Assembly: GCA_020444775.1 (NCBI GenBank)
Contig: JAGRHX010000265.1
Location: 1-12,696, forward strand
Direction: 5' to 3'
DNA length: 12,696 bases
Source: Gammaproteobacteria bacterium
Lineage (GTDB): Bacteria; Pseudomonadota; Gammaproteobacteria; HK1
Positions 196 to 12,696 of this stretch are shown one piece after another (within the stretch, counting starts at the first letter, position 1; every line of letters starts with the position of its first letter). A program made the translations under genes and the position numbers. The notes under the pieces were generated by a model that saw only the letters and a program-made list of their open reading frames with translations, made no database searches and was not told where the DNA came from.

Positions 196-702
196 TCAGG
201 GCACCGGGCGGATCTCCTCGGCACGCAGATCGCCATCGTGGTTGGCGTCCACCAGCGCGAAGCTGTGGGCCATGTGGTCACGGAACTCGCGCGAGCTGAT
301 GATGCCGTCGCCATTGCGGTCGGCGAGCTCGAACACCCTCGCCTGGTAGCGATACGCCGGCGTGCCGGCGGGCGAGGAGACCAGCTCTGACTTCGATAGC
401 GAGAGCGAACGATCGCGATCCAGCGGACCGAACATTGCCGCGAGGTGCATGTCGATCTCTCCAGCATCCACCAGCTGGTCGTTCTCGCAGTCGAGCAGCG
501 GGAAGAAGCGTCCGATCAGATAGTGAGCGGCGCTGAGCTCGTCGACTGCCGGCTCGTCTTTCTTCGGCGCCATGTCCGACGTGCTCGGCGCGGTCGGCTC
601 GTGGCCGGGGTGAGTTGCTGGTCCGGCCGAGATTGGCGATGACAACGTCGTCAACAGCAGGGCGCCGATGATGAGCTCGGGACGGATACGAAGCATGGGC
701 AT
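196..702 (-). CDS. Secreted EF-hand calcium-binding protein
   Basis: A 168-residue protein if it starts at the ATG at 702; an ATG at 696 is equally possible. A longer frame to a GTG at 744 exists, but it puts polar sequence before the signal peptide and has no ribosome-binding site. Residues 1-26 form a signal peptide (hydrophobic IIGALLLTTL, then ISAG). A Pro/Thr/His-rich linker follows. Two canonical EF-hand loops are visible: D128-R-N-G-D-G-I-I-S-S-R-E139 and D152-A-N-H-D-G-D-L-R-A-E-E163. Two degenerate loops precede them, at D71-E82 and D95-E106; the latter has lost the central Asp-Gly. This is therefore a probable Ca2+-binding periplasmic or exported protein with two working sites and two decayed ones. 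It sits 90 bp after one 2OG oxygenase and 64 bp before another. Its role is unknown. Confidence 0.85.
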   Translation of the reverse strand: MPMLRIRPELIIGALLLTTLSSPISAGPATHPGHEPTAPSTSDMAPKKDEPAVDELSAAHYLIGRFFPLLDCENDQLVDAGEIDMHLAAMFGPLDRDRSLSLSKSELVSSPAGTPAYRYQARVFELADRNGDGIISSREFRDHMAHSFALVDANHDGDLRAEEIRPVP

Positions 703-792
703 CAAGGACCGGTTGTCATGGCAAGAGCCACGATAGCCTGGCACGCGCTTGTGACAGCTTGATGGCGGATCGGGGACGCATCAGCCGCAGAC

Positions 793-1431
793 TCAGCGTG
801 GCCATGGCGTGCCGGCGAAGTAGATGTCATAGCCGAGTGAACGCAGACGCTCGGGAATGGCGTTGAAGGCCAGGGTGATGCGTTGCGCCCCCTGGTTCGG
901 TGGCACGCCGTGCAGCAGGTAGCTCGGATACAGCACCATGTCACCGGGTGACACCTCGGGCAGCACCCAGCGGTCCGCGCCGAACTGTCCGGGACGTTGC
1001 CCGGCCGCGTCGTTCTTGAAGATGAACTCGCCGCTGCCCGGACTTTTCATGAACACGGTATGGGTCGACGGATGTGGTCGGTTCAGATAGACGATCCCGG
1101 ATACGAAGCTGTTGGCATGCGAATGGATGAACTGACTGCCACCGGGTTCGAGCACGTTCAACCACATCTCCTTGATGGCCCAGGCCAGGGGCTCACCAAA
1201 CAGCAGCTCGCCAAAGCGACCGATGTCGGGGATCGCCGCGGTCTGCACGCGCGCGAACAGCGGGTCCGTGGACGGGTCGAGCAGCCGTGTATGCGAGAGC
1301 TGGCCGGACTGGCTGTTGCGCTCGAGCGTGTCGGCGCGGGCTCGTTCACGCAGCTGCGCGACCGTTTCGTCGTCCAGCAGGCGCTCGCAGTGCATCAGCG
1401 GTGTCGGAAACAGGCCGATGACCTTGCTCAT
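793..1431 (-). CDS. 2OG-Fe(II) oxygenase, TIGR02466 type
   Basis: A complete 212-residue protein, near the usual length for this family (about 200). It would be a cytoplasmic oxygenase using Fe(II), O2 and 2-oxoglutarate to oxidise an unknown substrate. The N-terminus carries the family opening GLFPTPLM. The iron-binding region is H103-S-H105-A-N-S followed by SGIVYL, the family pattern HxH...SGvyYl. The distal ligand is H174 in YLLHGVPPN, and R184 in QRITLAFN is the expected 2OG carboxylate binder. All expected ligands are present, so it looks active. The ATG at 1431 follows GGGAG with 8-nt spacing, which supports this start. It lies 94 bp downstream of the spermidine-synthase-like gene on the same strand. 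Other members of the family occur at 131-1 and 10790-11485. Confidence 0.9.
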   Translation of the reverse strand: MSKVIGLFPTPLMHCERLLDDETVAQLRERARADTLERNSQSGQLSHTRLLDPSTDPLFARVQTAAIPDIGRFGELLFGEPLAWAIKEMWLNVLEPGGSQFIHSHANSFVSGIVYLNRPHPSTHTVFMKSPGSGEFIFKNDAAGQRPGQFGADRWVLPEVSPGDMVLYPSYLLHGVPPNQGAQRITLAFNAIPERLRSLGYDIYFAGTPWPR

Positions 1432-1525: not shown

Positions 1526-4276
1526 TCACGGTGAGAGCCGGCGCATCAGCGCGGCTGCCTCGGGACGGCTCGGCCCGGCTCGTTTCAGATCGAGCAGCAG
1601 GTCGCGGGCCGCGGCGGGGTCCTTGGCCGCCAGCAGGTTCGCCATACCCAGCAGGGGCATGTAGGCCGGGTCGAAGTCGGCGCTCTGCCGGACCACGGCC
1701 AGCAGCGGCTCGCGCGTCTGCTCCAGCATGACCTGCAGATCATGCGAGGGGCGTACATCCACGCCTGCGTGCAGGAAGGCGTTGCGGGCCCGCCAGTAGT
1801 CGGCCAGTCGGCGATGGAAATCGCTTGTCCGCGGGTCGGCGGCGGCGCCCAGCAGGTCCACGGGACTTGCCCGCAAGGCATCGACCAGGGCGAGCAGTCG
1901 TACCGCCGGCGCGGCCTGGGGGCGATAGCTGAAATCGGGCGCTTTGTAGATCACCACCGGGTGATCGTCGGTATTCGGCCGCAGGTCCGGGTCGAGCTCG
2001 TCGGCCACGACCCTCAGCGCCGCCCCCGAGGCGAGGAAGTTACCGAACAGATCGAAGTCGGAGCGCAGTCTCAGGCTCGTCAGCTCGCGGCGCAGCGTCG
2101 GATCCTCGACCCGGGTATCCAACCAGCCAGGGTGGTACTCGATACCTTCAGGGTGGGAGATCAGGGCCAGCAGGGGTTGTCGCAGCGTGAAGTGCGCGAG
2201 CCAGGCCTGGCCGTCCGGAAACACGTCGGTGAAGGTGCGCAGGATGATGCCGAGGGTCTCGAGGTCGAGCTGGAAGACAGGCAGCCACTGACAGAACAAT
2301 CCGCCCTCGCGCAGACGGGCGCGGACCGCTTCGAAGTGCTCCGTCGTGTACAAGGCCCCGGCGCCGTCGCGCGAAGGATGGAACACCTCGGCGATGATCA
2401 CATCGTAGCGTTCCGGACTGGACCGGACGAAGCGCCGCGCGTCGGCGCTGAGCACCTGGAAGCGCGGATTCTCGCGTAGCGTGCGTAGCGATGGTCCGAA
2501 GTGGTGCAGCAATGGCAGGGTCTCCGGGATCAGCTCCACCGCAGTGGCCTTCAGACCCGGGTGGGTGGCCGAGGCGACGAAGGTGCTGCCGGTTGCCAGA
2601 CCAAGGAACAGCGCGTCGCGTGGCGCCGGATGCAGCAGCAGCGGGATATGCGCCTGACGACGGTCCGAGAAGGTGGTTGCCGTACCACCCATGGTGAAGC
2701 GATTGTTGATCTTCAGATGACGATGCTCGTCGCGGTCCTGCACGACCGCGACCGAGGCCATCACGCCTTCGTTGTAGTCGAGCAGCCGGCCGCCTGCTGG
2801 CAGGGTCACGAAGCGTAGCGCGCCCGGCACCACGAGCAGACAGCCGGCTGTGGCAGCGACGGCGATGCCGATGCCGATCTGGCGGCGTCCGATGGTCGGT
2901 ACCAGCAGCAGATAGGCAAGGCAGACCAGCAGCAGTGCGGTCTTGCTGCCGGTCATCGGCAGCACGATCACGCCGAACAGTGCCGGTGCGAGCGCCGCGC
3001 CGAAGGTGTTGAGTCCCAATGCCCGCCCCAGACCGAAGCGCTCGGTGGCGCCCTCTCCGAGATGGGCGAAGGTCGCGCCCATCAGCAGTGTGGGCAACAG
3101 GAAAATGCTGAGTGCGACGGCGAGCTCGGCGGCGATCGCGCCGAGGTAGGTGTGCCCGCTCCAGCCCAGCACGGTGGTATGCAGGGGCGCGGCCAGCCAC
3201 AGCAGGGCAACGCCAGCCAGCGCCGCGAGCGCCGTGACACACAGCAGAGTTCCCAGGGTAGCCGCGAAATCGGTGTGCCCGGTGTCAGCCCGATGACGTG
3301 CCCCCCGGCCACGAATGATGCCGAATGCTCGATAGACTGCGGCTCCCACGGCGGTACCGAGCAGGTAGACCGAGAGCAGGCAGGCAAAGGTATAGACGGT
3401 GTTCTCCAGTATCTGGCTGAGCACTCGAATGACCAGGACCTCGTAGCCGATCCCGAGCAGCCCGGTCATGAACAAGATGAGCATGAAGCGTGTCCGACCC
3501 ACACCTTCAATCGCCGCTGCTTGTCGCCCGCTCGCGCGCGGCGTCGAGCGGTCGGTGCGTAGCAAAGGCGCGGATCGGTCAGCGCGCGCCATCAGAAAGC
3601 CGATCGCCGCGCACAGCGCGTTCACCGCGAACAGCACCAACAAGGTTCGCGAGTAGCCGAGTGCCGGTGCCAGCACGAAGGTGCCGAGCAAGGTGCCGGC
3701 GACCGCGCCCAGGGTGTTGGCCGCATACAGCGCGGCAACGCCCCGACGGTTGTTGCCCGGGCCCGAGAGCAAGCGTTGCAGGGCCGGCAGCGTCGCGCCC
3801 ATGGCAAAGGTCGCGGGTAACAGCAGCAGCAGTGTCGAGGCGAATGCGCAGATCCACTGCCACGGGGCGGAGGGCTGCGGCCCCATCAGCTCGGCGACGA
3901 GGCGGTTGAATCCGGGTACCAGGAATACCAGCGCGAGCGCCCAGAAACCGATCACCAGCTCCACAGCGGTGTACCACGCGGCAGGCGCGCGGCTGCGTCT
4001 GATGACACCATCCAGTGACCAGGCGCCAAGGGCGAGACCGCTGAAGAACGCAGCAATCACCGCCAGCACCGAGCCGATCTCGTGGCCGAGCGCGACGCTG
4101 AGCATGCGCGTCCAGACCATTTCGTAGCCGAGGCCGGCGACACCCGAGAGCAGCGCGAGCAACAGCACCGGCAGCGTGAGCTTCAGGCCGGCTTGCGTCG
4201 CGACCGTGCCTTCGGTCCGGCGCGGCGGGTGGACGAAGCGACTTGGGAGCGAGGCAGGCTGGGGATCCGGGGTCAT
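1526..4276 (-). CDS. Polytopic membrane protein fused to spermidine-synthase-like domain
   Basis: 916 residues with about 13 hydrophobic segments between residues 32 and 490, then a Rossmann methyltransferase/spermidine-synthase-like domain, then a helical, possibly TPR-like tail (about 800-916). It belongs with the 'fused MFS/spermidine synthase' proteins common in environmental bacteria. The soluble part has the family entry DYNEGVM (500-506), a nucleotide-binding glycine motif GLATGST (559-565) and acidic E-L-I-P-E after the next strand. The residues that carry the catalytic Asp in SpeE (YDVIIvDSTDP) read YDVIIAEVFHP here, with A629-E630-V-F-H633-P, so ordinary aminopropyl transfer to putrescine is doubtful. 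The membrane half contains an internal duplication (see findings). The ATG at 4276 has only a weak upstream GGTG, so the start is less certain than the gene. Substrate and role are unknown. Confidence 0.88.
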   Translation of the reverse strand: MTPDPQPASLPSRFVHPPRRTEGTVATQAGLKLTLPVLLLALLSGVAGLGYEMVWTRMLSVALGHEIGSVLAVIAAFFSGLALGAWSLDGVIRRSRAPAAWYTAVELVIGFWALALVFLVPGFNRLVAELMGPQPSAPWQWICAFASTLLLLLPATFAMGATLPALQRLLSGPGNNRRGVAALYAANTLGAVAGTLLGTFVLAPALGYSRTLLVLFAVNALCAAIGFLMARADRSAPLLRTDRSTPRASGRQAAAIEGVGRTRFMLILFMTGLLGIGYEVLVIRVLSQILENTVYTFACLLSVYLLGTAVGAAVYRAFGIIRGRGARHRADTGHTDFAATLGTLLCVTALAALAGVALLWLAAPLHTTVLGWSGHTYLGAIAAELAVALSIFLLPTLLMGATFAHLGEGATERFGLGRALGLNTFGAALAPALFGVIVLPMTGSKTALLLVCLAYLLLVPTIGRRQIGIGIAVAATAGCLLVVPGALRFVTLPAGGRLLDYNEGVMASVAVVQDRDEHRHLKINNRFTMGGTATTFSDRRQAHIPLLLHPAPRDALFLGLATGSTFVASATHPGLKATAVELIPETLPLLHHFGPSLRTLRENPRFQVLSADARRFVRSSPERYDVIIAEVFHPSRDGAGALYTTEHFEAVRARLREGGLFCQWLPVFQLDLETLGIILRTFTDVFPDGQAWLAHFTLRQPLLALISHPEGIEYHPGWLDTRVEDPTLRRELTSLRLRSDFDLFGNFLASGAALRVVADELDPDLRPNTDDHPVVIYKAPDFSYRPQAAPAVRLLALVDALRASPVDLLGAAADPRTSDFHRRLADYWRARNAFLHAGVDVRPSHDLQVMLEQTREPLLAVVRQSADFDPAYMPLLGMANLLAAKDPAAARDLLLDLKRAGPSRPEAAALMRRLSP

Positions 4277-4573
4277 TCGGCACCGATGTGGTCGGGTCGG
4301 TCTGTCGGAAAAGCAGACTTCGTAGCAGCGGCTTGGGGCGGCGGTGTAGGGCGGCGCCGCGCCGGCTGGACGTGGATCACGGCTTGCGTTGCGGGCGTGG
4401 CGCGCGATCGGCTCAATTGTCTACAGGCCCGCTACAACGTCCGGATGCGCCCGACTACGCAACCCTACGCTCGGGTCTTGTCACAGGTGTGACATCCCGG
4501 TGGTCGCGTCCGAGCGATGCGCAACCGGCGGCGAGCCACTGCTCGAATGAACGCCGCCGTGTCTTGGCTCGTA
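4277..4573. other. Intergenic region upstream of the spermidine-synthase-like gene
   Basis: About 300 bp with no convincing gene; small open frames here have arginine-rich or repetitive translations typical of high-GC shadows. It should contain the promoter of the minus-strand gene starting at 4276. I could not pick a credible -35/-10 pair. The one clear element is the palindrome at 4479-4494. Confidence 0.6.
4479..4494. promoter_or_regulatory. Perfect 7-2-7 palindrome, candidate operator
   Basis: TGTCACAGGTGTGACA: the arms TGTCACA and TGTGACA are perfect inverted repeats around a GG centre. Read as TGTCA-N6-TGACA it has the 5-6-5 spacing of many dimeric regulators, including CRP/FNR-type proteins, but the half-site is not the CRP TGTGA. 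It lies about 200 bp upstream of the minus-strand gene starting at 4276 and downstream of the hairpin that ends the previous gene, so it probably acts on 4276. The regulator is unknown. Confidence 0.5.
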
Positions 4574-4616
4574 CCGGATACCCCGGGCACGCTCAGCGCG
4601 TGCCCGGGATGTCCGG
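4574..4616 (-). terminator. Strong hairpin downstream of the PEP-CTERM gene
   Basis: The core stem pairs 4582-4592 (cccgggcacgc) with 4598-4608 (gcgtgcccggg), 11 perfect base pairs around the 5-nt loop tcagc. After one C/A mismatch the pairing continues outward for seven more pairs, 4574-4580 with 4610-4616, including one G-T wobble. It starts 6 bp past the stop codon of the gene ending at 4622. No T-run follows on the minus strand, so it is a terminator-like or mRNA 3'-end-protecting hairpin rather than a textbook intrinsic terminator. Confidence 0.65.
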
Positions 4617-4621
4617 ATCGC

Positions 4622-5329
4622 TCAAGCGCGTCGTCTGGCGATGCCGACCAGGCCGACCAGGCGCGTCGGCGACAGCGGCAGCGCCGCCGGCACCGGCACC
4701 ACGGTCAGCTCACCGCTGCTGGTCGCGGCCAGGCTGATGAGTGCGCTTTCGCCGGGCGCCAGGGTCAGCATGAAGGCCAGGCTGTCGGCGAGCCCGGCCG
4801 AGTCGGGCCCGGTCGTCGAGCTGGCGAGCACCGAGTAGCTGGTGACGCTGCCGTCCACGTCCAGCTCCAGGGCAGCCGACGCCAGGGCGCTGCTCAACGG
4901 GTCGTCGACCAGCGTGAAGGCGTCCAGCACGTAGTCCAGGCTGAGCGCGATCTCGAGGGTCGCCTCGCTGGAGGCGTTGCTCAGCGCAAGATACGAGAGC
5001 GACTCGACCGTGCTGTATGCCTCGCCGCCGGTGCTCGCTGCATAGCCCGCCGAGTAGACACAGCCTCCGGGCAGGCCGAAGCACGCTTCGACCAGCGCGT
5101 CCGGCGTGAAGCTGGAGGCGCCGGTCACGAACTCGTCGATGAACACGTCGTCGTCCGAGCTCAGCATCAGATCGCCGAAGGCGTCGATATAGGTGATGGT
5201 ATCGATATGCAGCGCCGCATCCACGCTCGAGCCATAGTCGGCAGCGGCGTACGCGGCATTCGAGCCAAGCAGCAAGGCCAGCGCGATCACGGTGCCGCGC
5301 GCAAGCTCAGAAAGTCCAACAAGTCTCAT
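4622..5329 (-). CDS. PEP-CTERM-like secreted protein
   Basis: 235 residues. A signal peptide spans about residues 1-29 (hydrophobic VIALALLLGSNAAYA). The mature part is rich in Ser, Ala, Asp and Leu, acidic and low in charge clusters, as in extracellular PEP-CTERM proteins. The C-terminus (211-235) has VPVPAALPL, then LVGLVGIA and the basic end RRRA. This is the tripartite VPxPAA / hydrophobic / RRR sorting signal normally read by exosortase (EpsH/XrtA). The hydrophobic stretch is interrupted by SPTR, so the signal is atypical. No exosortase lies in the window. The ATG at 5329 is chosen because GGGGA (5338-5342 on this strand) lies 8 nt upstream; a TTG at 5344 is in frame but would include that site. 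Cys residues in FGLPGGCVYS and VEACF may form a disulfide. The function of the mature domain is not recognised. Confidence 0.78.
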   Translation of the reverse strand: MRLVGLSELARGTVIALALLLGSNAAYAAADYGSSVDAALHIDTITYIDAFGDLMLSSDDDVFIDEFVTGASSFTPDALVEACFGLPGGCVYSAGYAASTGGEAYSTVESLSYLALSNASSEATLEIALSLDYVLDAFTLVDDPLSSALASAALELDVDGSVTSYSVLASSTTGPDSAGLADSLAFMLTLAPGESALISLAATSSGELTVVPVPAALPLSPTRLVGLVGIARRRA

Positions 5330-5337
5330 TGTCCTGG

Positions 5338-5342
5338 TCCCC
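5338..5342 (-). promoter_or_regulatory. Ribosome-binding site of the PEP-CTERM gene
   Basis: GGGGA on the minus strand, 8 nt before the ATG at 5329. It decides this start over the in-frame TTG at 5344. The PHP gene on the other side of the region has the same GGGGA at the same 8-nt spacing. Confidence 0.6.
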
Positions 5343-5417
5343 AATTAAAATCATCGATTCGACACGGTCTGGCAGTGTCCGATTCGAGCTGACCGCGTCG
5401 ATAAGCCCCCTGGAAGG

Positions 5418-5439
5418 TTTCTGAAAAGTTCCTGAAAAG
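5418..5439. repeat. Tandem 11-bp direct repeat, possible operator
   Basis: tttctgaaaag is followed directly by ttcctgaaaag, two 11-bp copies with one mismatch. The period is close to one DNA helical turn, so both copies face the same side of the helix. It lies about 90-110 bp upstream of the PEP-CTERM start. The second copy runs into a 10-bp palindrome, aaagcgcttt (5436-5445), whose TGAAA-AGCGCT-TTCC context resembles LacI-family operators. Confidence 0.45.
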
Positions 5440-6039
5440 CGCTTTCCGAGAGACATCCCCTCAGTAAGCCACTCGAGAGAAGTCCCGGGACGGCCGCCTC
5501 GGACGAGCTCCACGACTGCTGGCGACCGCACCCTCCAGCCATCGCGAGGCAACGTCCGAGGCGTGAGCTCTCCGTCCCATACTCCGTGTCCGCAGGCGCT
5601 GCGGCTCGGAACCGACCCGGGACCGTGATTCTGCGCAGGCCAGGTGTTGAGCGCGTGGCGCTTCTGTTTCGCTTCGATGACATCTGGAGGTCAATCTGCC
5701 CGAATACCGCTACCGATTCGGCAGGAGCTGATTGGCCACGTCGTCACGAAGAAAGGACCGAATGCGTCGGATCTGCCGGTCGTGAGGTCACACAACCAAC
5801 ACCTGAACGTCACAACTGGCCGCTACTCTTGCAAACGCTGCGTCCTGTCTGGACGCGCAGGGGGACGCGCTCATCCGCCGCACCGGGAGCCGCACGGTCT
5901 CATCACAGCACGCACGTCGCGGGCACATCCGTTCCGACCACTCGAAGTTCACCCGATTGCACGGCTGGCCGTCATCGGGTGGGTGGCGGATGGCGGTGTC
6001 ACGTGGCCAAGAAACCTATCTGGCTGAGTACGAACTCAC

Positions 6040-6044
6040 GGGGA
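6040..6044 (+). promoter_or_regulatory. Ribosome-binding site of the PHP gene
   Basis: GGGGA with 8-nt spacing to the ATG at 6053. Together with the signal peptide that starts at this ATG (MKKHVLAAAIV), it sets the start there rather than at the in-frame upstream ATG at 5957. Confidence 0.65.
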
Positions 6045-6052
6045 CGTCTTTG

Positions 6053-8110
6053 ATGAAAAAGCATGTGCTTGCAGCTGCCATAGTCACCGCTCTCGCGTCC
6101 GGCGCGAGCAGCGCCGCGGATGGCAACGGCGAATACCTGGCGGGGGATTTCCACAACCATACGGCCTGCTCGGACGGCTGGACCTCGGTGAAGACGCTGG
6201 CGCGTCAGAGCCTTGTGTACCTGGACTGGTTCGTGCAGGTAGGGCATAGCGGATCCAGTCAGCGTGACTGCCGCTTCGACGATTTCTACTACTACTCGAA
6301 TGCGAGCTCCAACTCACCGAACATCTGGTACAACTCGTTGCTGAGTGACGAGGAGAAGACCGCGTGGCTGGACTCCGGCGCGCTGCCCGAAGACAAGTTC
6401 AAGGGCAACAACCACGGTGCCAGCACCCAGGGCGACGGCGTCCGGGTGCCGCGCATGTGGAAGTGGCAGGAGATGCAGGATTTCATGCTCGAGCCCCTGG
6501 TATCGGTTCGGAATGAACCGGGCAACAAGGCAGCCGCGAAGGAGGCGATGCTGGGTCTGGAGTGGGTGGTGCCCGGTCACGAGCACGGCAGCGACATCAT
6601 CACGGCCGGGCAGTACGACCCGCAGCCGAATGCCAACGCGATGGCGCAGTGGGAGTACTGCTTCGCACGGAACTCCGAGGACACCTCCGGCGGTGGCGAC
6701 AACGGCTGGACCTGCGAACTCAGCGAAGCTTCCAACGACGTCCTCAAGTCGATGTTCGAAGGCCGGCCCGAGGAAGGCGTGGCGGACTACAACTCGACGC
6801 TCGGCGCCGACGGGATCAACACCGAGGCCGACGCGGGTGACCATGTCAAATCCACGGCCGCGGTGCTGTGGATGAACGAGAACTTCCCCCAGGAGAGCGT
6901 CGCGGTGATGGCGCACATCGAGCGCCAGGGCGCGCACTACGCGCCGAGCAACGATCCGGCCAACACCAGCGACCGCGGTTTTGGCTGGAACGTCGAGCAC
7001 GTTCGTGACCACAACACCGCAGCGCCCAACGTTGCCTTCGGCTTCGAGAGCCAGCCCGGTCACCAGCCGATCCCCAGCCGCGGCGGCTACGGCACAAACG
7101 CTGCCGGTCTGGGTACCTATGGCGGGACCGGCTGCTATGCGGGCGCCGAGGCGGCGAGGCCAGGCATGGATTTCGACGGCACGCCGCTCACCCAGGCCGA
7201 TTTCCAGGAAGGTGGCAAGTACCCGCTGGTGGCGGACAACCGCAATCCGAAGCGGGTCACCGTGTGCCGCCCGGGTGTGCGCACGATGTGGGACGCGCTG
7301 CTCAGCGAGGGTCGCCGTTTCTGGTCGTTTGCAAGCTCTGACTGGCATAGCCGCGGCGCCTTCGGCCCGCTCGACTACGAGACCACGGGTGACTTCTGGC
7401 CAGGCGAGTTCCAGAAGAACTACGTGTACATCGACAAGACCGCGTATGCCGATCCGGGTAAGGCGCTGGTCGCCGGGCTGCGCAGCGGCAACAGCTGGCA
7501 CGTGATGGGTGATCTGGTCGACCAGCTCGAGTTCGAGGTCTGCGCGGGCAACCAATGCGCGACCATGGGTGAGGCGCTCGAGGTCCGCAAAGGGCGCTGG
7601 ATACGGGTGTCGCTGAAGGTTCGGGATCCAAACGGTCCGAACAACAGCCCGTATCGCTTCGACAACCCCTACCTGACCCAGATCGGCAAGCAGGTCCCGA
7701 TCAACGAGCCTGAGCTTGCCCAGGTGGATCTGATTTCCGGCGTGGTGCACGGCCGGATGTACAAGCCCACCGATCCTGAGTACTACGAGCCGATGGCACC
7801 TGCGACGACCAGGATCGCCAAGACCTGGACCCAGGCGAACTGGTCGCGCAGCCCGATCAAGACCATGCGCTACTGGGTGAAGGTCGATGAGGACATGTAC
7901 TTCCGTGCGCGCGGCTCGAACATCCCGGCCGGGACCCCCCATTCCCGGGACGTGGATGGCAACCCGCTGCTGGACTGGGAGACCGACAACATCCCCTGTG
8001 ACGACGCGGCATGTCCGCCGCACGTGAACGGCGTGCTGGATGCCGACGTGCAGGCCTGGGCCGACGTCTGGTTCTATGCGAACCCCGTGTTCGTGAAGGT
8101 GACCCGCTAG
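6053..8110 (+). CDS. Secreted PHP-domain metallohydrolase-like protein
   Basis: 685 residues. A signal peptide covers residues 1-21 (KKH then LAAAIVTALASGASSA), so the protein acts in the periplasm or outside. It opens with GDFHNHTACSDGWTS, the PHP-superfamily motif I (H34, H36, D41). Later candidate metal ligands follow in PHP order: H65 in VQVGHSG, E170 in GLEWVV, H176/H178 in PGHEHG, H288 in MAHIERQG and D430-W-H432 in ASSDWHSRG. The PHP fold binds two or three metal ions and usually hydrolyses phosphoesters. DUF3604 proteins carry a similar GDLHxHT opening and are the closest alternative label. A long insertion lies between H288 and D430, and about 200 extra residues follow the last motif; their function is not recognised. 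The ATG at 6053 is supported by a ribosome-binding site and signal peptide. It leads the plus-strand cluster, with a hairpin separating it from the next gene. The substrate is unknown. Confidence 0.82.
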   Translation: MKKHVLAAAIVTALASGASSAADGNGEYLAGDFHNHTACSDGWTSVKTLARQSLVYLDWFVQVGHSGSSQRDCRFDDFYYYSNASSNSPNIWYNSLLSDEEKTAWLDSGALPEDKFKGNNHGASTQGDGVRVPRMWKWQEMQDFMLEPLVSVRNEPGNKAAAKEAMLGLEWVVPGHEHGSDIITAGQYDPQPNANAMAQWEYCFARNSEDTSGGGDNGWTCELSEASNDVLKSMFEGRPEEGVADYNSTLGADGINTEADAGDHVKSTAAVLWMNENFPQESVAVMAHIERQGAHYAPSNDPANTSDRGFGWNVEHVRDHNTAAPNVAFGFESQPGHQPIPSRGGYGTNAAGLGTYGGTGCYAGAEAARPGMDFDGTPLTQADFQEGGKYPLVADNRNPKRVTVCRPGVRTMWDALLSEGRRFWSFASSDWHSRGAFGPLDYETTGDFWPGEFQKNYVYIDKTAYADPGKALVAGLRSGNSWHVMGDLVDQLEFEVCAGNQCATMGEALEVRKGRWIRVSLKVRDPNGPNNSPYRFDNPYLTQIGKQVPINEPELAQVDLISGVVHGRMYKPTDPEYYEPMAPATTRIAKTWTQANWSRSPIKTMRYWVKVDEDMYFRARGSNIPAGTPHSRDVDGNPLLDWETDNIPCDDAACPPHVNGVLDADVQAWADVWFYANPVFVKVTR

Positions 8111-8141
8111 GGAGCCATCCTGACCCGTCGGGTGTGCAAGC

Positions 8142-8169
8142 AGACGGGAGACCACCCGGTCTCCCGTCT
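8142..8169 (+). terminator. Intercistronic hairpin after the PHP gene
   Basis: agacgggagac (8142-8152) pairs perfectly with gtctcccgtct (8159-8169), 11 bp around the 6-nt loop cacccg. Only a short TTT follows (acgtttcagc), so termination may be partial. It starts 31 bp after the PHP stop and ends 25 bp before the next ATG. It could reduce read-through or protect the PHP mRNA 3' end, making the secreted protein more abundant than the membrane proteins downstream. Confidence 0.65.
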
Positions 8170-8194
8170 ACGTTTCAGCTGAGAGACTACCGAC

Positions 8195-9091
8195 ATGTGG
8201 ATGCGTGGATTCAAGAGTCTTGCCAGTGAGCCATTGATCCAGTTCCTGCTCATCGGTCTGGTGATGTTCATCGCCCACGACCGCTTACTGGATGGCAACA
8301 ATCCTCGTCGCATCGTCGTCGACGACGCGCGTTTGAACGAGATCCGCGCCATATTCGAGGAAGCCCAGGGGCGTGCGCCTTCCACCCAGGAGCTCGACGA
8401 CCTGCTGGTTCGCTGGGTGCGTAACGAGGTGTTGTTTCGTGAAGCCCTGAAGATGGGTCTGGACCAGGGTGACGATATGATACGCAGCCGTCTGATCCTG
8501 AAGATTCGCAATATCCTCTTTGACAATCTGGGCGTGGAGACACCGCCAGACGCGGTTCTTCAAACGTGGTTCGAGGAGAATCGAGACGCTTATGATCTGC
8601 CGGCGCTGTACAGCTTCGAGCAGTTCCGTCTGGAAGATGGTGTCGATAGAGAACAGGCCGAGCAGCTCGCGCAAACGCTGGGCAGCGCGCCGCCCCAGGG
8701 TCGTCATGCCGCGGCCTTGCGCCGATACGCGCGTCGTCCCGAAGTCAACCTGAGTCAGGTCTTCGGGGCGGATGACACCCGTCGACTGTTGTCCGTGCCG
8801 GATCATCACTGGACGGTGTTGAGCTCGGTGCAGGGCCTTCACCTGGCACGGATAACCGAGCGGTTTGCCGCCGATCCGGCCGAGTTCGATGCAACCCGGG
8901 CGCGCGTGATGCGCGATTGGGAGAAGAGCGCCCGACAGCTGCAGCTTGCGCGCGCGCTGAAGAAGATTCACGACAAGTACGATATTCGCTACGAGGTCGA
9001 CCGGCAGCCCGCGGACATTGCCGGACCCGATGCCGATCCGGCGCACAACGCGGGACTGCGTGAGCCGGGCAGAGCGGAGCCGCGCGGATGA
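8195..9091 (+). CDS. Membrane-anchored SurA/parvulin-like peptidyl-prolyl isomerase family protein
   Basis: 298 residues. Residues 12-29 (EPLIQFLLIGLVMFIAHD) form one N-terminal membrane anchor. The rest should face the periplasm. Residues 38-130 are the helical SurA_N-like part: IVVDDARLNEIRAIFEEAQGR, then LVRWVRNEVLFREALKMGLD, and R-S-R-L-I-L-K-I-R-N. The EPLxxFLLIG...IVVD...EVLxREALxxGLD layout is that of annotated 'peptidylprolyl isomerases' that, from memory, often precede HupE/UreJ genes. The C-terminal parvulin domain is short and poorly conserved, so chaperone activity is likelier than isomerase activity; this is inference. The acidic/proline tail after 285 is probably disordered. The gene ends in ATGA, overlapping the HupE start by 4 nt, so it is probably translationally coupled and may help assemble that protein. 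An alternative start is the ATG at 8201. Confidence 0.78.
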   Translation: MWMRGFKSLASEPLIQFLLIGLVMFIAHDRLLDGNNPRRIVVDDARLNEIRAIFEEAQGRAPSTQELDDLLVRWVRNEVLFREALKMGLDQGDDMIRSRLILKIRNILFDNLGVETPPDAVLQTWFEENRDAYDLPALYSFEQFRLEDGVDREQAEQLAQTLGSAPPQGRHAAALRRYARRPEVNLSQVFGADDTRRLLSVPDHHWTVLSSVQGLHLARITERFAADPAEFDATRARVMRDWEKSARQLQLARALKKIHDKYDIRYEVDRQPADIAGPDADPAHNAGLREPGRAEPRG

Positions 9092-10092
9092 AGGCGGGTA
9101 CGACTGGCGTGCCAGCGGGCATCATGACCCGACTGTCGCTGGGGCTGCTGGCCCTGCTGCTGCTGGCCGGCTCCTGCCGGGTGCTGGCACACAGCACGCC
9201 AGTGGCGACCTTGAACCTGCGTGCCACCGCCACCCAGGGCACCTACGTGGAGAGCTGGAACTGGGCCTCGCCACGCGATGTCGCGCGACCGACCGCGATC
9301 TTTCCTGAGCAATGCAAGAGCGAGCCGCCACTGGTGGTTTGTGGCGACCAGGGGCTGGTCGGTGCATTGAGCGTGGAACGCCTCGGTGAGCGGTACTCGG
9401 CGGTGGTGGTGCGCGTGGTCGGCCGCGACAGCAAGGTGCGCAGCTACACACTGACCGCGGCTCAGCCGGTGTTGCAGCTCAGCGCTGATGGGGCGATGCC
9501 CTGGACACACGTGGCCAAGGCCTACGTGCCGCTGGGTATCGAGCACATCATGCTCGGTGTCGACCATCTGATGTTCGTCGCCGGCCTTCTGCTGCTGGTC
9601 GGGTCCAGGTGGATGTTGTTCAAGACCATCACTGCCTTCACCGTCGCCCATAGCCTTACCCTGGCCGCGGCGACCCTGGGCTGGGTCGGGGTACCGGAGA
9701 AGCCGGTCAACGCCGCCATCGCGCTGAGCATCGTGTTCGTCGCGGTGGAGGTGATGAAGCTGCGTGCCGGGCGGCCCAGTCTCAGCGCGCGGTATCCGTG
9801 GCTGGTGGCGTTCGGCTTCGGGCTGTTGCATGGCTTCGGATTCGCCGGCGCCTTGACCGGGGTTGGTCTGCCGCGCGAGAGCATTCCAGCGGCGTTGCTG
9901 TTCTTCAACGTGGGCGTCGAGATCGGTCAGCTGATCTTCGTGTTCGTTGTGCTGGGTCTGATGTGGTCCCATCGCAGCCTGCAGGTGGCCGCGCCGCGCT
10001 GGACTGAATCGGCGGTCGTGTACGCGATGGGCTCGGTGGCGAGCTTCTGGTTCATCGGGCGCGCGCTGCTGATCCTGACGCCGGCGACCTGA
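9088..10092 (+). CDS. HupE/UreJ_2 family membrane protein, probable metal transporter
   Basis: 334 residues. A signal peptide (hydrophobic 16-30, RVLA|HS) would leave His35 as the mature N-terminus; the ATG at 9124 (residue 13) is a possible alternative start. A periplasmic domain of about 105 residues follows, with C76 and C85 as a possible disulfide. Six or seven membrane segments then fill 148-332. Family motifs are clear: GIEHIMLGVDH (H153-x5-D159-H160, the HX5DH motif of HupE), FTVAHSLTL (H188), LLHGFGFA (H248) and FNVGVEIGQ (N274, E278). HupE/UreJ proteins are linked to nickel or cobalt uptake; no hydrogenase or urease gene lies in the window, so the metal here is uncertain. It overlaps the upstream gene by 4 nt (ATGA) and is followed 2 bp later by a related gene. 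Confidence 0.88.
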   Translation: MKAGTTGVPAGIMTRLSLGLLALLLLAGSCRVLAHSTPVATLNLRATATQGTYVESWNWASPRDVARPTAIFPEQCKSEPPLVVCGDQGLVGALSVERLGERYSAVVVRVVGRDSKVRSYTLTAAQPVLQLSADGAMPWTHVAKAYVPLGIEHIMLGVDHLMFVAGLLLLVGSRWMLFKTITAFTVAHSLTLAAATLGWVGVPEKPVNAAIALSIVFVAVEVMKLRAGRPSLSARYPWLVAFGFGLLHGFGFAGALTGVGLPRESIPAALLFFNVGVEIGQLIFVFVVLGLMWSHRSLQVAAPRWTESAVVYAMGSVASFWFIGRALLILTPAT

Positions 10093-10094
10093 AG

Positions 10095-10793
10095 ATGGGG
10101 AAGGGTGGGAAACCGATGATTGACTTGTCGACGAACCGCGGTGGGCGAACGGTCGGACGTTGCCACCAGCCCCTGACCAGGCTGCGTGCCGCGACGATCC
10201 TCGCCGCGCTGATGATGACCCTGCCGATGCCGGCCTCGGCACATCTGGTATCGACTCGCTTTGGGTCGTTCTACAGCGGCTTGCTGCATCCGCTGACTGC
10301 CTTCCAGCATCTGCTGCCGTGGCTGGCGTTGGCTTTGCTGGGGGTGATGGCCGGCGGTCGTGGGGTGAGATTCGGTTTCTCGCTGTTTCCGCTTGCGGTC
10401 CTGGGCGGTGTGCTTGCCGGTACGATCTGGCCGTTGCCGGAGACGCTGATGCGCGAGACCGACCTGCTCAACGTCGGCTCCTTCGTTCTCTTCGGCGGAC
10501 TTGCCGCGCTGTATGTGCGTCTGCCAGCTTGGTTGTTCGCCATGCTGTGCGTGCTGTTCGGGTTCAGCCATGGTCTGGCGAATGCAGATGCTTCGTTGCA
10601 TGGCAACGCGCGCTGGCTTTACGTCGGTGGGGTAACGCTGGCTGCCTACGTGTTGTTCGCCCTGGCCGCAGCCGGCGCGGCCGGGGTCCGCGACCGGCTC
10701 GACTTTGGTGGCATCGCGCTGCGCGTCGCCGGCAGCTGGGTAGCCGCCATCGGTCTGGTGCTCGGGGCTTTCGAGCTGGTGCGAGCAACGTGA
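10095..10793 (+). CDS. Divergent HupE/UreJ-like membrane protein
   Basis: 232 residues from the ATG at 10095, 2 bp after the previous stop. The in-frame ATG at 10116 has a better purine-rich upstream (GGGTGGG) and may be the true start. A signal peptide (ILAALMMTLPMPASA) would be cut before H50, giving mature HLVSTRFGSFYSG. About six membrane segments follow. The HupE/UreJ layout AHLxxTxxGxFYxGxxHPL...H is present: H65-P-L-T-A-F-Q71-H72 lines up with HX5DH, but the usual Asp is Gln71. GFSHG (H159) and H169 form a second His region. This is the shorter HupE/UreJ type, distinct from the longer protein just upstream, and probably works with it. Its stop overlaps the next start as GTGA. Metal transport is inferred from the family; the altered motif makes it less sure. 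Confidence 0.78.
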   Translation: MGKGGKPMIDLSTNRGGRTVGRCHQPLTRLRAATILAALMMTLPMPASAHLVSTRFGSFYSGLLHPLTAFQHLLPWLALALLGVMAGGRGVRFGFSLFPLAVLGGVLAGTIWPLPETLMRETDLLNVGSFVLFGGLAALYVRLPAWLFAMLCVLFGFSHGLANADASLHGNARWLYVGGVTLAAYVLFALAAAGAAGVRDRLDFGGIALRVAGSWVAAIGLVLGAFELVRAT

Positions 10794-11485
10794 GAGAGCC
10801 GTCCGCGGCGACAGCCGCTGCCACGCATGGACCGGGGCAGGCCGCGCTGGACCCTGCGCGTGTGGCCAGGCACACCTTGTCCATCTTTCCGACGACCATC
10901 GCCAATTTCCTCTGGCCGGACTGCGATGCCCTCAATGCCCGGCTCTGCGCGACGATCCTGGCGCGCGCCGGGTATGCGCCAGGGCTCGCGCGCAGCATCG
11001 TCGGTGGTTGGCATTCGGCGCTGGATCTGTTCGATTGGTCGGAGCCGTGCGTGCAAGAGCTGAAATCACGTATCGTCTCGTTCATGCAGCCCTTCACGCG
11101 GATCAGCGAACAGATCCAGGGCGATGATCCGCGCGACTGGCCATATCGGCTGCAGGGCTGGGCCAACGTGCTCTCGCACGGGGACTATCACATCGCCCAT
11201 ACCCATCCGAACGCGGCGTGGTCGGGTGTCTATTACGTGACCGACAACGAGCCGGTCGCCGGCCATCCGTACAGCGGCAAGCTGGAGCTGATGGACCCCA
11301 GACCCGGCGCCTCGGTCACCTACGCCGAAACCAGCCGTCTTTACGGACGCTTCCTGCTGAGCCCTTGTGCCGGACAGATGATCGTCTTTCCCGCCTGGTT
11401 GCAGCACAGCGTGCATCCATACTTCGGCACCGGGCAACGGATCGCCGTCGCCTTCAATCTGCTGCCGGTCGCGCGCCAGGCCTGA
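10790..11485 (+). CDS. 2OG-Fe(II) oxygenase, TIGR02466 type
   Basis: 231 residues from a GTG at 10790 that overlaps the previous stop by 4 nt (GTGA). A longer in-frame start at 10160 exists but would lie wholly inside the HupE/UreJ-like gene. An N-terminal extension of about 28 Ala/Thr-rich residues precedes LSIFPTTIANF, the family opening. The Fe region is H137-T-H139-P-N-A-A-W-SGVYYV, a textbook TIGR02466 pattern. The distal ligand is H206 in WLQHSVHPY (H209 nearby) and R217 in QRIAVAFNL binds 2-oxoglutarate. All expected ligands are present. It is the last gene of the coupled cluster behind two HupE/UreJ-like proteins and needs Fe(II). It differs strongly from the copy at 793-1431, so it is not a recent duplicate. 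The substrate is unknown. Confidence 0.88.
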   Translation: MREPSAATAAATHGPGQAALDPARVARHTLSIFPTTIANFLWPDCDALNARLCATILARAGYAPGLARSIVGGWHSALDLFDWSEPCVQELKSRIVSFMQPFTRISEQIQGDDPRDWPYRLQGWANVLSHGDYHIAHTHPNAAWSGVYYVTDNEPVAGHPYSGKLELMDPRPGASVTYAETSRLYGRFLLSPCAGQMIVFPAWLQHSVHPYFGTGQRIAVAFNLLPVARQA

Positions 11486-11505
11486 CCTTCCCGACAGGTA
11501 TTCCC

Positions 11506-11536
11506 CCCGGTCCTGTTTCCGGGTCCTCTCTCTTTT
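11506..11536 (+). terminator. Weak candidate terminator at the end of the cluster
   Basis: cccgg (11506-11510) pairs with ccggg (11519-11523) around an 8-nt loop. A pyrimidine-rich tract ending in TTTT (tcctctctctttt) follows. The stem is only 5 bp, so this is tentative. It is the only terminator-like structure I see just after the last gene of the cluster. Confidence 0.35.
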
Positions 11537-11829
11537 CGGGCTCGTGCCCAGCACCTTCCGGGCCTCCTGCGTCGGCCTACCGTGGTGGCCCGTGGCAGCG
11601 CCAGCGATGCGCTCGCCTCGGCCGCTCGATGGCTCCACGCTGCACTGCGGCATGGGGATAAAGTTGGCCGCGCAATGACCGATGTAGTTCGGTGAATGCA
11701 TCACGTTTCGGGCTGCGGACGGGCTCCAGGGAACCATGGCCATCGAGCTCGACCCCTCATCCTCACATACCGAGTCCCCAATGATTGCTTGTCCGGCTGA
11801 AAGCGCTCGATCTGCTCGAGCCCGGTCGC

Positions 11830-11834
11830 GGAGG
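11830..11834 (+). promoter_or_regulatory. Ribosome-binding site fixing the TTG start of the kinase
   Basis: GGAGG followed by 5 nt (ccgaa) and TTG at 11840. There is no ATG or GTG between this site and the in-frame upstream TGA at 11798. The first in-frame ATG (11876) would cut off the first strand of the receiver-like domain. Confidence 0.65.
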
Positions 11835-11839
11835 CCGAA

Positions 11840-12696
11840 TTGCGCGCACTGATCCTGCATCGCTCGAAGCGCTTCATGCGTGGTCTGCGTCAGCGGCTGG
11901 CCGAGATCCATCCGGATGTGGAGACCACCGAATGGGACACCGAGCAGCGCGGTTTTCCGGCGCCCGGCTTCGCCTGGGTGACCTATGACGTGATGTTCTG
12001 CGAGTGTGGGGGCGGCGCGGCGAATGACGTGCTGGCGCGGGTCCTGTCGTTGTTGCCCAAGGTGATGCGCTCGTGCGTGGTTGGTGTGAGTGTCGACCGC
12101 GATGTCTACGCGGCCATCGACGCGATCCACCTGGGCGCCGGTGACGTGCTGATCGAGGACGAGCTCGAAAGCGAACGTCTGGCCAGCGTCATCGACCGCA
12201 TACTGCATCCCGCGGACGACACCCAGACCGTCGAGATCTCGCGGATCCGCAACGAGGCCGAGAGCGTCGTGCTCAAGGCCGATCCGATCAACGAGCTGTT
12301 GAGCAAGCTGAGCCTGTACAACCCTCGGCTGATCGGCCAGGGCGGGATGTCAAAGCTGTACCTGGCCTGGTCGCTTCCCAACTCGGTGCCGGTGGTCGTG
12401 AAGATCCTGCGCAAGCAGAGCTCGCGTGAGGAGAAGCGTTACAAGCGGATGATGCTCGAGGGGCAGATCACCACTGCGTTGCAGAGCCGGCACGTGGTCG
12501 ACATCCTCAAGTGTGGCGAGTGTGACGATTTCGCCTATCTGATCATGGAGTTCCTGCCCGGTGGCGATCTCAAGGAGCGCATCGAGACGGGACTCACGCC
12601 ACGGCAGAGCGTGGACATCACCGTGCAGCTGTGCGCCGCGCTAGACGCTCTGGCTGCGCACGGTATCGTGCACCGTGACATCAAGCCCTCGAACGT
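11840..12696 (+). CDS. Ser/Thr protein kinase with degenerate receiver-like N-terminus (3' truncated by window)
   Basis: 285 complete codons are in the window; the frame is open to the last base. Residues 1-125 look like a response-regulator receiver: LRALILHR as strand 1, YDVMFCEC as strand 3, VVGVSVDRDVYAAIDAIHLGAGDVLI as strands 4-5. The acidic pair after strand 1 is H7-R8, the phospho-Asp site reads C-E-C (54-56) and the strand-5 Lys is missing, so phosphorylation is unlikely. A linker (about 125-160) leads to a Hanks-type kinase: glycine loop LIGQGGMSKLYLA (164-176), ATP-binding K188 in VVVKIL, helix-C E207, hinge LIMEFLPGGDL and catalytic H278-R-D-I-K-P-S-N285. The catalytic Asp is D280. 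The DFG motif and C-terminal lobe lie beyond the window. The TTG start is supported by GGAGG. It is separated from the oxygenase cluster by 354 bp, so it is probably an independent unit. Confidence 0.85.
   Translation, partial: MRALILHRSKRFMRGLRQRLAEIHPDVETTEWDTEQRGFPAPGFAWVTYDVMFCECGGGAANDVLARVLSLLPKVMRSCVVGVSVDRDVYAAIDAIHLGAGDVLIEDELESERLASVIDRILHPADDTQTVEISRIRNEAESVVLKADPINELLSKLSLYNPRLIGQGGMSKLYLAWSLPNSVPVVVKILRKQSSREEKRYKRMMLEGQITTALQSRHVVDILKCGECDDFAYLIMEFLPGGDLKERIETGLTPRQSVDITVQLCAALDALAAHGIVHRDIKPSN

Follow-up and report, generated by a model that had tools for sequence, protein, structure and literature searches.

What do a secreted PHP-superfamily enzyme, a SurA-like protein, two HupE-type permeases and an oxygenase do together? 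Their genes follow one another on the plus strand of a 12,696-nucleotide stretch of Gammaproteobacteria bacterium DNA (GenBank assembly GCA_020444775.1, contig JAGRHX010000265.1), which we call the window. The original prediction took these five genes as one cluster serving a metal-linked pathway. The five genes, their overlaps and the gap are as it described, but the conserved core is a different set: the PHP enzyme, the SurA-like protein, the first permease (HupE1) and two proteins encoded elsewhere in the window, namely an oxygenase (OxyB) and SpdS, in which a major facilitator superfamily (MFS) transporter is joined to an aminopropyltransferase-like domain. That this conserved unit is real we regard as almost certain. 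The features concerned are:

6053..8110, plus strand: secreted PHP-superfamily enzyme, 685 amino acids, with a signal peptide, a PHP domain and a C-terminal immunoglobulin-like domain (about 486-685); core
8111..8194, plus strand: intergenic stretch with a 12-bp perfect stem-loop (z -3.4), terminator- or stabiliser-like
8195..9091, plus strand: SurA-like protein with a Rotamase_2 domain and a hydrophobic segment at its N-terminal end; core
9088..10092, plus strand: HupE1 permease, HupE_UreJ_2 (PF13795), with an N-terminal non-membrane domain; core
10095..10793, plus strand: HupE2 permease, HupE_UreJ (PF04955); lineage extra
10790..11485, plus strand: OxyA oxygenase, PF13759/TIGR02466; lineage extra
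793..1431, minus strand: OxyB oxygenase, PF13759, core subfamily
1526..4276, minus strand: SpdS, with an MFS transporter (about 25-465), an aminopropyltransferase-like domain (about 490-784) and a helical C-terminus; core

An alignment of 26 PHP proteins, including the window's, was used to collect relatives from one-genome-per-species records, and we kept the best 80 of 303 confirmed loci (numbered with the prefix L). Their record titles are mostly alpha-, beta- or gammaproteobacterial, the outliers being L022 (Delta proteobacterium) and two metagenome bins, L039 (Planktophila) and L055 (Phycisphaerales). Environmental bacteria that carry the module include Xanthobacter aminoxidans, Variovorax ginsengisoli and Paucibacter oligotrophus. 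All counts out of 80 were scored inside the fetched stretches, many of which end at contig ends. The loci were picked for PHP resemblance, so PHP is present in 80/80 by construction; the SurA-like protein is found in 76, HupE1 in 72, OxyB in 71 and SpdS in 66. A HupE2-type gene occurs in 22 (more than 3 kb away from HupE1 in L018 and L080) and OxyA in 7. The expectation that the five plus-strand families would be kept together therefore failed, as HupE2 and OxyA are lineage extras and the omitted OxyB and SpdS are core. PHP has more than 8 kb of sequence on both flanks in 52 loci; 45 of these carry the complete core, the other seven being L013, L022, L026, L035, L037, L041 and L047. In L041, SpdS and OxyB are located on a different contig of the same genome.

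Because the 80-locus set is biased toward PHP, we also counted each family separately in a second sample. Class-wide sampling of PHP was too sparse (the centre genome was the sole match among 168 genomes), so one taxonomic family, that of L041 (an uncultured beta proteobacterium), was sampled densely with 150 genomes. The strong type of HupE1, SpdS, OxyB and the SurA-like protein each occur in the identical 14 genomes, using bit cuts that we placed at score gaps, with each search scoring a limited number of first-look candidates. The lowest accepted and next scores were at least 403 and 328 bits for HupE1, at least 1076 and 236 for SpdS, at least 273 and 103 for OxyB, and at least 325 and 181 for the SurA-like protein. 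When weaker relatives are included, at the E-value limits of the searches, the numbers of genomes with any match are 67, 15, 28 and 19, respectively. PHP was found at E 1e-50 in 11 of the 14 genomes and in none of the other 136; in G008, G227 and G258 it is fragmented with lower scores (a 64-position piece only in G258). A repeat search at E 1e-5 in five near-miss genomes (G281, G285, G291, G191 and G303) gave no PHP, and the other 131 were checked at 1e-50 only. The chance of a random exact match between two sets of 14 is 5.6e-20 if kinship of the genomes is ignored, a figure which overstates the case because the genomes are related.

When the distance matrices of the core families are compared over 61 complete loci and the window, their correlations lie at 0.71-0.96 and those of label shuffles at 0.27 or below; this reflects shared inheritance, not function. 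Genomes tend to retain the module more or less whole or to lose it altogether, and we therefore consider it a probable single pathway for metal handling. In L006 the start of a SurA-like gene lies at the contig end beside PHP (4.7e-5), though the genome search at 1e-5 gave none. No description of the module was found in titles and abstract starts of the open-licence PubMed Central literature searched.

How the unit is transcribed bears on its extent. A perfect stem of at least 9 bp follows PHP in 47/80 loci, often with T-rich sequence after it, compared with 4/400 random windows of the same loci; since those random windows are mostly coding, we read the stem as a terminator-like element that is not specific to PHP. 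In the window, the stem-loop between PHP and the SurA-like gene argues against a single five-gene transcript. A scan for sigma-70-like promoters found none in 4200-11900 and is uninformative, because shuffled sequences gave a mean of 1.0.

What, then, would each protein contribute? The PHP enzyme keeps ten His, Asp and Glu residues in 80-81 of 81 aligned rows (H34, H36, D41, H65, E170, H176, H178, H288, D430 and H432), which by analogy are probably metal ligands, and its sequence and structural model predict an exported metallohydrolase. It matched no Pfam family at 0.001, and membership of DUF3604 (PF12228) was rejected for this reason; a comparison with a profile of four DUF3604 proteins gave a probability of 21.9% over 48 columns, which is not confident. 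Against the CehA/McbA metallohydrolase model NF038032 it scored 44.8 bits, below the cut-off of 80. Foldseek returned no match at E <= 0.001, but the realigned candidates had PHP folds, and a PHP fold is predicted for the enzyme. A search of the PDB with the PHP profile gave two weak matches, both to designed proteins. Separately, a family of 170-amino-acid lipoprotein-like proteins lies near PHP in 12/80 loci (L018-L032).

SpdS scores 83.4 bits against the fused MFS/spermidine synthase model NF037959 (cut-off 40) and also matches a spermine synthase model, and its predicted structure has both an MFS fold and an aminopropyltransferase fold. However, the Asp of the GGGDG motif, which holds decarboxylated S-adenosylmethionine (SAM), is absent: all 65 sequences that are ungapped at position 562 have Thr, Ser or Ala instead. 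With Thr in place of this Asp, SpdS is expected to use SAM rather than decarboxylated SAM, and it is best described as a predicted SAM-binding enzyme joined to an MFS pump. Both oxygenases pass the PF13759 cut-off; for TIGR02466 (cut-off 62.5), OxyA is above at 70.9 and OxyB just below at 57.4. They keep HxH...H...R, so an intact metal site is predicted. OxyA may alternatively start at GTG 10862, which agrees with the start of its L005 homologue. A search on TIGR02466 in open-licence PubMed Central found nothing related by title.

HupE belongs to a nickel/cobalt permease family, and HupE1 scores 161.1 bits against HupE_UreJ_2 (cut-off 24.5). With signal-peptide cleavage judged by eye, His is the first mature residue in the window's protein and in 72 of its 73 matches, the remaining one being a fragment; HupE2 likewise has His directly after its judged signal peptide. 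In PMC12537917, copper (dissociation constant 74 nM) and nickel (220 nM) are shown to bind to the His1 domain of a PF13795 permease, and such proteins are named anglerases. A role for HupE as a hydrogenase or urease accessory was rejected, with neither domain present in the 10 window proteins scanned and the 24 recurring flank families only partly annotated. For the SurA-like protein, Rotamase_2 (PF13145) is the sole Pfam match at 0.001, and it does not have the full SurA architecture of an N-terminal domain plus parvulin domains.

The SurA-HupE pairing named in the original prediction was borne out beyond the module. We took 25 stretches with SurA-like genes outside it, together with their flanks (L085-L109): five leftovers from the 150-genome count and 20 of the 24 matches of another search, leaving out G016 (a module holder) and the matches in G396 and G415. 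Of these, 23 have HupE1, 17 have DUF3604 and 16 have both; DUF1254 occurs in 2, and several stretches stop at contig ends. Thus 16 of the 23 pairs adjoin DUF3604, another PHP-like family, so that serving a PHP-type enzyme may be a frequent role of SurA-HupE pairs. The DUF3604 profile was made from the L085, L086 and L088 proteins, which match by construction, but Pfam scores of 637-817 bits for four DUF3604 proteins confirm these three; the L109 match is weak (7e-12). DUF3604 with HupE was not described in the open-licence PubMed Central literature searched, and a search on DUF3604 alone gave nothing related by title. DUF1254/DUF1214 genes adjoin the pair in L087 and L096. Sulfatase-like genes, recognised by eye, stand beside SurA-HupE-DUF3604 in L093 and L105.

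Taken together, SpdS and OxyB look like the makers and exporters of a small molecule, and PHP, the SurA-like protein and HupE1 like an outer metal-handling trio. Our leading, though tentative, reading is ligand-based metal acquisition. In the cytoplasm, SpdS would transfer a SAM-derived group (methyl rather than aminopropyl) onto an amine-type compound, OxyB would hydroxylate the product, and the MFS half of SpdS would export it as a metal ligand. The membrane-anchored SurA-like protein would help to fold the PHP enzyme outside, where that enzyme would free the metal by hydrolysing its loaded ligand; HupE1 would then capture the metal with its His1 domain and import it. HupE2 and OxyA may add capacity in the window's lineage.

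The neighbouring genes bear on which metal this would be. Non-core family counts are not independent of the 80 loci because the profiles were built from them. A PCuAC- or CopC-family gene is present in 41/80 loci (33 PCuAC-like, 8 CopC-like), and one representative of the 33 scores 60.1 bits in Pfam (cut-off 29.4). Both are copper-chaperone families, whose presence agrees with the metals bound by anglerases. Together with the ligand-type residues of PHP and the His start of HupE, these genes support one part of the original prediction, a metal-linked pathway with a secreted PHP enzyme at its centre, even though its five-gene unit did not stand. Canonical copper ligands of PCuAC proteins are Met/His motifs. 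In the 33 PCuAC-like proteins the residue at the judged mature start is His in 13 and Cys in 20, and HPW is kept in 31; HxHxDGG is conserved in all eight CopC-like proteins, none of which begins with His. As the usual ligands are not conserved, we rate copper as likely rather than settled, and copper or nickel is the most likely choice. PMC9973294 notes that some His-rich CutF-like proteins have HupE neighbours and connects these with nickel or cobalt.

Several results weigh against ligand-based acquisition. HxM follows the judged start in only 2 of the 33 PCuAC-like proteins (L024 and L029), a TonB receptor is near the module in only 17/80 loci, and none of the 7 sources scanned (of 90) had a metal-responsive riboswitch at gathering score. 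The N-terminal domain of HupE1 matched no Ang-1 structure by sequence; its profile found no solved chain at E 1, and the single sequence found two unrelated thioesterases only (E 0.7-0.9). A set of 16 genomes, partly incomplete and mostly chosen for SpdS-less loci, included 6 without an SpdS match at E 1e-30. In L013 (Thiohalocapsa), PHP is adjoined by an N-terminal piece of SpdS only, and a weaker full homologue lies on a separate contig with no other core genes nearby. Finally, PHP, SpdS and the core oxygenase occur in 0 of the 25 SurA-HupE stretches outside the module, so HupE, beside DUF3604 without SpdS or oxygenase, need not serve a ligand.

Metalloenzyme maturation with catabolism is a possible explanation that comes close behind ligand-based acquisition in our ranking. 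Here the SurA-like protein and HupE1 would be the dedicated foldase and metal supply of PHP, and maybe likewise of DUF3604; PHP would attack an environmental compound, and OxyB and SpdS (as MFS importer and SAM enzyme) would process the product. The 16 of 23 outside pairs that adjoin a second secreted PHP-like family fit it, as do the conserved metal-ligand-type residues, the genes like those for type II secretion (T2SSG- and T2SSE-like) near the module in 8 alphaproteobacterial loci, and the sub-threshold CehA/McbA resemblance, which suggests that small esters or carbamates are cleaved. It leaves unexplained, however, why in the 150 genomes the tie of SpdS and OxyB to PHP is no looser than that of the SurA-like protein and HupE1. 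Relatives of HupE are, moreover, described as permeases for nickel uptake; PMC12537917 cites them as nickel permeases.

Could the module be a metallophore pathway without a peptide synthetase, in which SpdS builds an amine-type ligand from SAM and exports it, the oxygenase finishes it, PHP breaks the metal-loaded form and a His1 HupE imports the metal, with the PHP-SpdS pair as its oldest part? We consider this combination unlikely. In L022 (Delta proteobacterium NaphS2, 9968-14457), PHP adjoins a full SpdS, and a search of the genome gave no match for HupE1, the SurA-like protein or the oxygenase; the missing oxygen-dependent step fits if NaphS2 is, as we assume, an anaerobe. L013 is not a second clean case, because only a piece of SpdS is beside PHP and the other matches are weak or scattered (the SurA-like gene is on another contig and the oxygenase match is short and weak), so L022 is the sole instance of the pair.

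The remaining genes of the window, the first of which has the same direction as OxyB and SpdS and, like them, lies outside the interval of the original prediction, are:

196..744, minus strand: EF-hand secreted protein, with relatives near the module in 8/80 loci
4622-5344, minus strand: secreted protein without a family match, whose C-terminus carries a VPLPA-like sorting motif (by eye)
11840-12694, plus strand: beginning of a Ser/Thr protein kinase, truncated at the window end; its N-terminal stretch is of no clear type

Among the relatives, T2SSG-/T2SSE-like genes lie near the module in the alphaproteobacterial loci L010, L016, L035, L037, L050, L073, L075 and L079, and also in L054. In L050, OxyB and a CopC-like gene are downstream of them on the same strand.

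Surface assembly, in which a modified polyamine or lipid would be exported for the cell surface in connection with type II secretion and PEP-CTERM proteins and metal handling would serve PHP only, is improbable. Two PEP-CTERM-like families (13/80 and 10/80 loci) and the secretion-like genes in 9 loci speak for it, but neither is found in most loci, and no surface-polymer genes were recognised among flank genes that are mostly unannotated. Plain nickel/cobalt uptake genes lying by chance beside unrelated enzymes would suit the HupE family, but we give this very little credence, as the five families occur in the same 14 of 150 genomes and are linked across alpha-, beta- and gammaproteobacterial-titled loci. 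That the five plus-strand genes are themselves the functional unit, as the tight joining of the last four might imply, is scarcely credible given how rare HupE2 and OxyA are, the frequency of OxyB and SpdS outside that unit, and the hairpin which separates PHP from the rest.

Through the module, five families of unknown or general function become one testable unit, which also gives PF13759 oxygenases and MFS-spermidine-synthase fusions a functional setting. If ligand-based acquisition is true, the module would represent a new way of making a metal-binding natural product.

Known systems resemble parts of the module. The structures 3e38 and 2anu share the PHP fold with the window's enzyme, and 3e38 is likewise two-domain, but the window protein is longer and only 12% identical to them. 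Spermidine synthase and putrescine N-methyltransferase have the aminopropyltransferase fold and SAM-binding motifs also seen in SpdS, which differs from both in its fused MFS transporter and, in the window, has Thr in place of the GGGDG Asp. The solved TIGR02466/PF13759 proteins 2rg4 and 3bvc match by sequence (1.3e-18 and 5.2e-18); as both are annotated as uncharacterised, no function transfers to the oxygenases. Anglerases are the closest parallel to HupE1: as reported in PMC12537917, they are Pseudomonadota proteins in which a PF13795 permease carries an N-terminal domain that begins, once mature, with His, and HupE1 has the same permease type and His. Proteins of unknown function head the list of their neighbours in the text of that paper, followed by DUF4198, indigoidine synthase and PfkB, and the text does not name PHP, the SurA-like protein, PF13759 or SpdS. 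The DUF3604-SurA-HupE neighbourhoods, in stretches without SpdS or the core oxygenase, place a PHP-like enzyme next to the same SurA-like/HupE1 pair as the module. The module thus resembles a specialised form of a more widespread three-gene arrangement, in which a SurA-like protein and HupE accompany a PHP-type enzyme.

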